From Futiania mangrovi (GTDB lineage: Bacteria > Pseudomonadota > Alphaproteobacteria > Futianiales > Futianiaceae): a DNA stretch of 64,000 bases. The DNA lies in NCBI RefSeq assembly GCF_024158125.1, contig NZ_JAMZFT010000001.1:1116001-1180000 (forward strand). The letters are read 5' to 3'. The notes beneath the pieces are model-generated. The model was given only the letters and a program-made list of their open reading frames with translations, had not been told where the DNA came from and did no database searches. Of the stretch, positions 1-10,468 are shown in pieces (the stretch's first letter is position 1; each line of letters opens with the position of its first letter). Position numbers and translations under genes: made by a program.

Positions 1-2678
<2,678 letters not shown>

Positions 2679-2743
2679 CGATGCCGCCTCCCCCGTCACA
2701 GACCCGGCCTCATCGCCGGGCCGGACCGGCGTGTCCGGACACC

Positions 2744-2860
2744 CTACCCGGCGCCCAGGACCGCGCCCCAGAGCGAAGCTACCCAAACAAGGGACGCGAT
2801 GGCCAGTACCCCGACGATGTCGCCCGCCCGCGGACCGCGGTCTGACCGATGATACTGCAT
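2744..2860 (-). CDS. 38-aa single-pass membrane protein under a LexA-type promoter
   Basis: A short ORF of 38 aa: a charged N-terminus ([14 protein letters not shown]), then one hydrophobic stretch of about 22 residues ([19 protein letters not shown]) to the C-terminus. The ATG at 2860 has an excellent Shine-Dalgarno (GGGAGGGG, about 6 nt upstream). A -35/-10 pair overlapped by a GTTC-N7-GTTC box lies 35-60 nt upstream. Known: Caulobacter SidA is a tiny SOS-induced inner-membrane inhibitor of cell division. Inference: this ORF may play a similar role. There is no sequence-level proof of homology, and the identification rests on size, topology and promoter. It lies 65 nt upstream of dnaE and may be co-transcribed with it. 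Confidence 0.72.
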
Positions 2861-2873
2861 GGCTGCCCCTCCC

Positions 2874-2923
2874 GTTCTTGCTGTGTTCACAAGAACGATA
2901 TGAGAACAAATGCCCTTCGTCAA
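2874..2923 (-). promoter_or_regulatory. SOS promoter with two LexA boxes
   Basis: Read on the minus strand: -35 TTGACG (2918-2923), a 17-bp spacer, -10 TATCGT (2895-2900). The box GTTCTCATATCGTTC (2893-2907) covers the -10, where bound LexA would block RNA polymerase. A second box, GTTC-N7-GTTC read on the plus strand, lies at 2874-2888 between the -10 and the ribosome binding site. GTTC-N7-GTTC is the established alphaproteobacterial LexA site. It points toward the 38-aa ORF and dnaE, and starts just after the lolD stop. Confidence 0.85.
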
Positions 2924-2939
2924 GCGCCTCGCGCCGCGC

Positions 2940-3623
2940 TCAGCTCACCGGAACGATTCGGCCGGCAGACAGTGTCACCGCCCGGTCCATCTGCCGGGCG
3001 AGCGCATGGTTGTGCGTGGCGATCAGCGCGCCCAACCCCTCCTCGCGCGCGAGGCGGACGAGTTCCGCGAAGACCTTGTCGGAGGTTCTCGGGTCGAGGT
3101 TTCCGGTCGGCTCGTCACCCAGAAGCAGGGCCGGCCGGTTGGCGATGGCACGGGCGATGGCGACGCGCTGCTGCTCCCCGCCGGAAAGCTCTGCAGGCCG
3201 GTGGGTGAGCCGCGCCTCGAGCCCCAATGCGGTCAGCAGGGAGATGGCGCGCGTCTCCGCCTCCTCCTCCGGCTTGCCCGCCAGCCGCAGCGGCATCATG
3301 GCGTTCTCGAGCGCCGTGAACTCCGGCAGGAGGTGATGGAACTGGTAGATGAAGCCGATGCGGTCCCGCCGCAGCGCCGTTCGCTCCCGGTCGCCCAGGT
3401 GCGTGGCATCGACGCCCCCGATCCGTACCTCTCCGGAATCGGGCTGTTCGAGCAGGCCCGAGACGTGCAACAGCGTGGACTTGCCCGACCCCGATGGGCC
3501 GACGAGCGCCACAAGTTCGCCCGCGCGGATGTCGAGATCGGCCCCGCGCAGCACCTCCAGCCGCGCCTCGCCCGAGCGATAGCCGCGCTGGATGCCGCGA
3601 AGCACGAGAACGGGCTCACTCAT
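2940..3623 (-). CDS. lolD: Lipoprotein-releasing ABC transporter ATP-binding protein LolD
   Basis: ATPase of the Lol system, which extracts outer-membrane lipoproteins from the inner membrane and hands them to LolA. 227 aa, the normal length. It has Walker [10 protein letters not shown] (about residues 42-50), the signature [14 protein letters not shown], and Walker [13 protein letters not shown], typical of the MacB/LolD branch. Its ATG overlaps the stop of the permease gene by 8 nt (ATGAGTGA), so the two are translationally coupled. The stop codon lies 17 nt from the -35 of the downstream SOS promoter. Confidence 0.97.
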
Positions 3624-8716: not shown

Positions 8717-10384
8717 CTAGCCCTGCCGCGCGTCGCGGAAGGCGTTGGTGATCGGGTAACGGCGGTCGCGGCCGAAGTTGCGCGGGGAGATCTTGACCCC
8801 CGGCGCGGCCTGGCGGCGCTTGTACTCGGCGATGTAGACCAGGTGCTCGATACGCGCGACGGTCGCCCGGTCGAACCCACGCGCCGTCACCTCGTCGACC
8901 GAGCGATCCTCGTCCACCAGCCCGCGCAGGATCGCGTCCAGCACGTCGTAGGGGGGAAGCGAATCCTCGTCCTTCTGGTTCTCGCGCAGTTCCGCGGTGG
9001 GCGGCTTGTCTATGATCCGCTGCGGAATGACGCGGCCCGCGGGGCCGAGTGCGCCTTCGGGACGGTTCTGGTTGCGCCACTCCGACAGCGCGAAGACCTG
9101 TGTCTTGTAGAGGTCCTTCAGCGGATTGAAGCCGCCGCACATGTCCCCGTAGAGCGTGGCGTAGCCCACCGCGACCTCGGACTTGTTGCCGGTCGTGAGC
9201 AACATGGAGCCGAGCTTGTTGGAGACGCCCATCAGCAGGAGCCCGCGCATCCGGCTCTGCAGGTTCTCTTCCGTCACGTCGCGCGGCCGGTCGCCGAAGA
9301 GCGGCGCGAGCGCGGCCTCCGCCGCCGCCACGCCCTCGGCAATCGACACCGTGTCGTAGTGCACGCCCAGCGCGTCGGCGCAGGCCTGGGCGTCCTCGAG
9401 GCTCACCCCGCTCGTGAAGCGCGAAGGCAGCATGATCGTGTGGACCTTGTCGGGGCCAAGCGCGTCCGCCGCGATGGCCGCGGTCAGCGCGGAATCGATG
9501 CCGCCCGAGAGGCCGAGGACGACCGAGGGAAAACGGTTCTTGCGCACATAGTCGCGCAGGCCCCGCATGCAGGCCTGGTAGATCGCGGCATTGCCCTCCG
9601 GCACCGCCGGACGCTCTCCCGTCTCGCAGATCCAGCCGTCGCCCGACCGGCGCCAGTCGGTGATGCGGATCGCGTCGGTCCATGCGGGCATCTGGTGCGC
9701 GAGGCTGCAATCGCCGTTCAGCACGAAGCTGCCGCCGTCGAACACAAGCTCATCCTGGCCGCCAAGCTGGTTGACGTAGACAAGCGGCAGGCCGCTTTCG
9801 GTCACGCGGGCGATGGCCTGCTGCAGGCGGCGGTCGTGCTTCATCACCTCGAAGGGAGATGCGTTGATGGAGACGAGGATTTCTGCGCCCGTCTCCTCCA
9901 GGCACTCCGTCACGTCTGGGGCCCACATGTCCTCGCAGACCATGACGCCGACGCGCACGCCGCGCACGCCGACGGGTCCGGGCAAGGGCCCCTGCGCGAA
10001 CACCCGCGGCTCGTCGAACACGCCATAGTTCGGCAGTTCGTGCTTGAAGCGCCGCGCCTCGATCCCGCCGCCCGCGAGGTGCAGCGCGGCGTTGAACACC
10101 TTGTCCTTCTCCGCCCACGGCACGCCCACGACGACGTCCGGCCCGCCGTCCGCGGTATCCGCCGCCAGCGCCTCGACCGCCGCCATGCACGCCTTCACGA
10201 AAGCGGGCTTGAGGACAAGGTCCTCCTGCGGGTAGCCGCTCAGGAAGCACTCCGTCAGGACCACGAGGTCGGCACCGGCCGCCGCGGCCTCGGCCCTCGC
10301 CGCGCGTGCGAGCGCCAGATTGCCCGCGAGGTCGCCGACGGTCGGATCAGCCTGGACGAGCGCGATACGGAGATGGTCTGTCAT
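8717..10384 (-). CDS. nadE: Glutamine-dependent NAD+ synthase
   Basis: Last step of NAD biosynthesis: amidation of nicotinate-adenine dinucleotide using ammonia from glutamine. 555 aa in two domains. The N-terminal nitrilase-type glutaminase (about 1-265) has catalytic Glu45 (VLTECFLSGYPQED), Lys114 (FKHELPNYG) and Cys150 (VMVCEDMW). The C-terminal ATP-pyrophosphatase domain has the PP-loop SGGIDS at about 293-298. I chose ATG at 10384 (MTDHLRIALVQADPTVGD); the open frame extends 17 codons further but without family similarity. Confidence 0.97.
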   Translation of the reverse strand: MTDHLRIALVQADPTVGDLAGNLALARAARAEAAAAGADLVVLTECFLSGYPQEDLVLKPAFVKACMAAVEALAADTADGGPDVVVGVPWAEKDKVFNAALHLAGGGIEARRFKHELPNYGVFDEPRVFAQGPLPGPVGVRGVRVGVMVCEDMWAPDVTECLEETGAEILVSINASPFEVMKHDRRLQQAIARVTESGLPLVYVNQLGGQDELVFDGGSFVLNGDCSLAHQMPAWTDAIRITDWRRSGDGWICETGERPAVPEGNAAIYQACMRGLRDYVRKNRFPSVVLGLSGGIDSALTAAIAADALGPDKVHTIMLPSRFTSGVSLEDAQACADALGVHYDTVSIAEGVAAAEAALAPLFGDRPRDVTEENLQSRMRGLLLMGVSNKLGSMLLTTGNKSEVAVGYATLYGDMCGGFNPLKDLYKTQVFALSEWRNQNRPEGALGPAGRVIPQRIIDKPPTAELRENQKDEDSLPPYDVLDAILRGLVDEDRSVDEVTARGFDRATVARIEHLVYIAEYKRRQAAPGVKISPRNFGRDRRYPITNAFRDARQG

Positions 10385-10468
10385 GGGCGGGCGGTCATGT
10401 ACCCGGATTTGGGGCCTGTGCCGGGACGAAGGCAAGCCCCCGCCCCGGCGTGGATGGATGGTTCGGCC

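Follow-up and report, generated by a model that had tools for sequence, protein, structure and literature searches.

The closest described system is SidA of Caulobacter crescentus. This protein of 29 aa is under LexA control and interacts with FtsW, and it keeps the FtsW/I/N complex in an inactive state but leaves the Z-ring in place (PMC4211646). Its gene is CCNA_02004 (PMC10769358) and the dnaE gene of the same organism is CC1926 (PMC1839093). DidA, also from Caulobacter, resembles it in being a small inhibitor of the inner membrane that is induced by damage and acts on FtsW/I/N, but it has 71 aa, is SOS-independent (DriD) and binds FtsN (PMC4211646). YneA of Bacillus, reported as acting on FtsW (PMC13396833), and SosA of Staphylococcus are SOS-induced membrane division inhibitors too. 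These two proteins belong, however, to Gram-positive hosts, and they are likened to the present one by description and not by sequence. To our knowledge, how division is held after DNA damage is poorly known for most alphaproteobacteria outside Caulobacter.

The window, i.e., the whole stretch of DNA that was analysed (64,000 nucleotides), contains on its minus strand an ORF of 38 codons that is SidA-like in several respects: it encodes a tiny, predicted single-helix membrane protein with a basic N-terminus, has a LexA box in its promoter and is located directly upstream of dnaE. The two proteins also have a core, D/E-x10-W, that can be aligned without gaps. The 38-aa ORF differs from SidA by (i) a longer N-terminus (38 vs. 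29 aa for the whole protein), (ii) a sequence lying outside the curated model and (iii) a first LexA box that is inverted with respect to the usual GAAC-N7-GAAC. The activity of the 38-aa protein is a prediction. The length of 38 aa and the LexA boxes do not fit DidA.

The small ORF and its control region

The gene order on the minus strand is proS-like, lolC/E-like, lolD, promoter and boxes, 38-aa ORF and dnaE, the names proS and lolC/E being taken from translated ORFs only. The upstream neighbour, a lolD-type ABC ATPase (2940-3623, minus strand), was used as a synteny marker in the comparisons. The small ORF extends from an ATG at 2860 to a stop at 2744. The gene of the replicative DNA polymerase III alpha, dnaE, covers positions 1-2699 on the same strand and continues beyond the window; its start codon is probably the GTG at 2699.

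The ribosome-binding site GGGAGGGG (2866-2873, minus strand) is of the GGAGG type and lies 5 nt before the ATG. The AlphaFold2 model of the 38-aa protein consists of one helix (residues 12-36, mean pLDDT 84). The original prediction of a 38-aa single-helix ORF with a near-perfect ribosome site is thus confirmed. Residues rich in R/H precede the helix, hence an N-terminus that is predicted to be cytoplasmic (N-in) according to the positive-inside rule.

The promoter scan of positions 2500-3100 yielded one sigma-70-like promoter vs. 0.1 expected. This promoter, TTGACG-N17-TATCGT (2923-2895, minus strand), has its −10 within LexA box 1, GTTCTCATATCGTTC (2907-2893, minus strand), which has the form GTTC-N7-GTTC. 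LexA box 2 (2874-2888) is separated from box 1 by 4 bp and has the opposite orientation; it reads GTTCTTGCTGTGTTC on the plus strand and GAACACAGCAAGAAC, i.e., GAAC-N7-GAAC, in gene orientation. A consensus-like promoter with its −10 under GTTC-N7-GTTC and a second, opposite box at this distance had both been claimed beforehand, and both are present. Position 2923, formerly given as the end of the feature, is in fact where the −35 begins (minus strand); the ORF itself starts at 2860.

Three matches to GTTC-N7-GTTC were counted in the 64 kb vs. 1.34 expected by chance. Since two of them are found within 34 bp before a single ORF, a chance occurrence is very unlikely. The third match (8978-8992, plus strand) is inside an ORF resembling NAD synthetase (8717-10435, minus strand) and is probably due to chance.

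The genome contains one LexA and one RecA above family cut-offs. Each of three fetched loci contains the same LexA motif once, in the place where the promoter is expected: recA (GTTCCACACTTGTTC), lexA (GAACCAAACTAGAAC) and the imuA-imuB-dnaE2 cluster (GTTCCTAATATGTTC), in which the names imuA and imuB follow from the position before the second dnaE copy. Judged by its sequence, the box at the small ORF is an SOS box of this genome, and the LexA/SOS control proposed earlier gains support from the motifs before these three loci.

The DnaE frame is free of stops from 2909 (minus strand) and thus spans the small ORF, which could be masked if automatic annotation places the start of dnaE too far upstream. 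A perfect 12-bp palindrome, GTGTCCGGACAC, is located at 2731-2742, directly 3' of the small-ORF stop; the local RNA fold is mildly stable (z −1.7). Rfam gave a single tRNA over the window and nothing else, and Pfam gave no match.

The dnaE upstream region in Caulobacteraceae and other families

Eighty named loci, nearly all from Caulobacteraceae (Caulobacter, Phenylobacterium, Brevundimonas), were compared. A tiny SidA-like ORF, most often of 29 aa, is found directly upstream of dnaE in 75 of them, and a strict LexA box at this site in 62. The 29-aa ORF just upstream of dnaE in Caulobacter vibrioides OR37 matches the NCBIfam model NF033228 «div_inhib_SidA» (1.6e-20, 72.7 bits for a cut-off of 35), and a Brevundimonas-type ORF obtains 25.3 bits with the same model and cut-off. 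The pN/pS ratio is 0.28 over 1101 pairs of Caulobacteraceae ORFs, these pairs not being independent. The 38-aa ORF, with its single TM segment, is immediately upstream of dnaE and thus in the same place as the OR37 ORF. It also agrees with the wider family of SidA-like loci in having LexA boxes, two of them being predicted.

For a class-wide sample, the dnaE upstream regions were located by means of DnaE N-termini; the DnaE query for finding genomes was an approximate Caulobacter sequence, which served only for locating them. A strict LexA box is present in 26 of the 129 regions (that of the window being excluded) vs. 1.45 in dinucleotide shuffles. The combination of a LexA box with a tiny ORF, defined as an ATG ORF of 25-50 aa with a TM-like stretch and a ribosome site at the right distance, is present in 17/129 regions vs. 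0.0 in shuffles. The locus, whose conservation in related genomes the original prediction proposed to look for, is thus conserved in Caulobacteraceae and in further alphaproteobacterial families. These 17 regions come from 10 families besides that of the window, Caulobacteraceae being one of them. Many of the sampled families have no such box or ORF, thus the distribution is patchy. Locus L294 has the LexA box and the ORF; none was recognised in L293.

Eight loci (L024, L294, L150, L102, L098, L023, L071, L127) have a LexA box, a ribosome site and an ORF of 33-37 aa at the same place as the 38-aa ORF. In most relatives the promoter is of the canonical type TTGAC-N6/8-GAAC-N7-GAAC-AT, where the LexA box takes up the spacer that separates −35 from −10. 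The promoter of the 38-aa ORF, on the contrary, contains these elements in a different arrangement. The orientation of its box 2 (gene sense) is that of almost all relatives. L024 and L294, the pair with the helix closest to that of the 38-aa ORF, differ by 12 synonymous codons (the stop codon included) and by 1 non-synonymous codon.

Other loci (L031, L121, L040, L067, L051, L073, L093, L065, L022) have tiny TM ORFs and a LexA box at the same position, the ORFs being without clear similarity to the 38-aa ORF. Such dissimilar ORFs may result either from very fast divergence or from replacement by unrelated peptides. None of ten other ORFs taken from this locus in other families was matched by NF033228. 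In genome G229 a SidA-like ORF is found in L291 (1429-1584, plus strand), and its promoter contains a degenerate box, GAAC-N7-GTAC.

Sequence similarity and probable identity of the 38-aa protein

The 24-residue core of the 38-aa protein has 11/24 residues identical to those of GDLVALGMMAGSIWLVVLWGAVFG (L024) in an ungapped alignment (p ~0.001, the N-terminus and the helix being shuffled independently). Ungapped comparisons with L150, L098, L102, L023 and L071 give p values of 0.001-0.003. The comparison with SidA of Caulobacteraceae alone is borderline (p 0.02-0.3). The intermediate ORFs (L024, L150, etc.) align to SidA itself without internal gaps in the core.

A PSSM was built without the 38-aa ORF and 300 segments (stop-anchored, TM-like, 38 residues) were scored. 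Everything that ranks above the 38-aa ORF is a SidA-like ORF by sequence, and all these segments come from the position upstream of dnaE except L291, which is beside lolD. The HMMER family profile, applied directly to the 38-aa ORF, gives 7.6 bits in the expected register, a score reached by 39/5000 shuffles. The family profile A3 did not retrieve the ORF from its own whole genome. The HMMs built from Caulobacteraceae only, from diverse ORFs only and from all ORFs did not find it significantly; among the ORFs of the window it ranks third, first (E 0.5) and outside the top ten, respectively. A direct search of 58 genomes with the 38-aa protein gave, apart from itself, noise only. NF033228 does not match it, so the ORF is not filed under this family as curated.

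The sequence taken alone would not settle homology. When position, regulation and moderate similarity are considered together, homology is likely. The preferred conclusion, to which a probability of about 0.75 is assigned, is that the 38-aa ORF is a highly diverged and probably orthologous sidA, whose product would, once the DNA is damaged, act through FtsW to block the synthesis of the septal wall. A diverged sidA is the most likely identity because a putatively LexA-controlled helix gene is found exactly where Caulobacter keeps SidA, i.e., upstream of dnaE. This position is the strongest argument, and it was absent from the original prediction. The SidA-type identity put forward there is supported by the layout of the locus (lolD - LexA box - tiny TM ORF - dnaE) and by the gap-free alignments. 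As the sidA locus is kept across families and the alignments are gap-free, the term «functional counterpart» probably understates the relation, an ortholog being likely. Its small size and its divergence explain why annotation misses the gene.

The following mechanism can be proposed, mostly by analogy with SidA. LexA, bound to the two boxes that cover the −10 and the start region, would keep the strong promoter shut. When the DNA is damaged, RecA would trigger the cleavage of LexA and the promoter would open. The strong ribosome site would then allow fast synthesis of a tiny inner-membrane protein with its N-terminus presumably in the cytoplasm. Within the assembled divisome, helix 12-36 may contact FtsW (and FtsI/FtsN), so that the FtsW/I/N complex would be held inactive and septal wall synthesis would wait for repair. 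Mutations at A31, F145 and A246 of FtsW suppress SidA in Caulobacter (PMC4211646). The FtsW of the present genome can be aligned to that of OR37 and retains these three residues. This is compatible with the same contact and is not a proof of it, since the residues may be generally conserved for other reasons.

Alternative readings and possible extent of the sidA locus

The LexA boxes could serve dnaE, in an operon under LexA control where the small ORF is translated as a leader or coupling peptide and has no role of its own. Such an arrangement would fit the short gap of 44 bp between the stop of the small ORF and the probable start of dnaE; moreover, no terminator-like site was found, and the interval from lolD to dnaE shows no second promoter. 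Transcription from the LexA promoter may thus continue into dnaE in this genome. In the relatives, however, the spacing between ORF and dnaE ranges from ~50 to >400 bp, a DnaA-box-like site lies between them in some cases, and purifying selection bears on the amino-acid sequence. The same-family ORF of G229, MQIWLKDTLALVSLFALTWMGMAWIAVLDLT, has stayed by lolD with dnaE on another contig (L291 vs. L026), and its retention at lolD although dnaE has moved argues against a leader of dnaE. It is thus unlikely that the ORF is only a leader. That a mere chance ORF follows genuine LexA boxes regulating only dnaE is highly improbable: the ORF is short (38 codons) and is crossed by an open DnaE frame (up to 2909), but a strong ribosome site is combined with a TM helix, ORFs occur at the conserved position in 17/129 other regions vs. 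0.0 in shuffles, and they resemble it without gaps.

The 38-aa ORF could also encode a tiny membrane protein that is SOS-induced but unrelated to SidA by descent (DinQ/TisB-like or DidA-like), is present at this locus by coincidence and does not act on FtsW. SOS peptides with a single helix have evolved several times (DinQ, PMC3567139; SosA, PMC6851548), sequence models do not recognise the 38-aa ORF, and the ORFs of several other families at the locus (e.g., L031, L040, L051, L067, L121) have no clear similarity to it. A coincidence nevertheless appears rather unlikely, given that position and regulation are identical to those of sidA and that the ORF matches, without gaps, several dnaE-upstream ORFs which form a bridge to SidA. 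A diverged sidA is thus retained as the preferred identity.

In a broader perspective, sidA may well be more than a peculiarity of Caulobacterales, namely an SOS checkpoint gene of old standing in alphaproteobacteria. It would have been retained between lolD and dnaE in about ten further families, with a protein that drifts too fast for the kinship to show in anything but locus and promoter; the 38-aa ORF would be among its most diverged forms. The kind, i.e., an SOS-induced tiny membrane division inhibitor, is already known, and what appears to be new is this member. There is also an indication, with reference to the part of the earlier literature that was checked, of a second novelty: the extension of the sidA locus over many alphaproteobacterial families where it is unrecognised by Pfam/NCBIfam. 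Where sequence models fail, the missing inhibitor can be found by a simple rule, the locus together with the LexA box; the natural SidA variants from this locus constitute a set for mapping the contact to FtsW.

Perfect DnaA boxes (TTATCCACA) are found at most 500 bp upstream of dnaE in 22/210 alphaproteobacterial regions vs. 0.35 in mononucleotide shuffles. Several of them sit between the SidA-like ORF and dnaE, and examples of loci with DnaA boxes are L024, L071, L051, L093 and L073. A control of dnaE by DnaA is thus a possibility suggested by these motifs.
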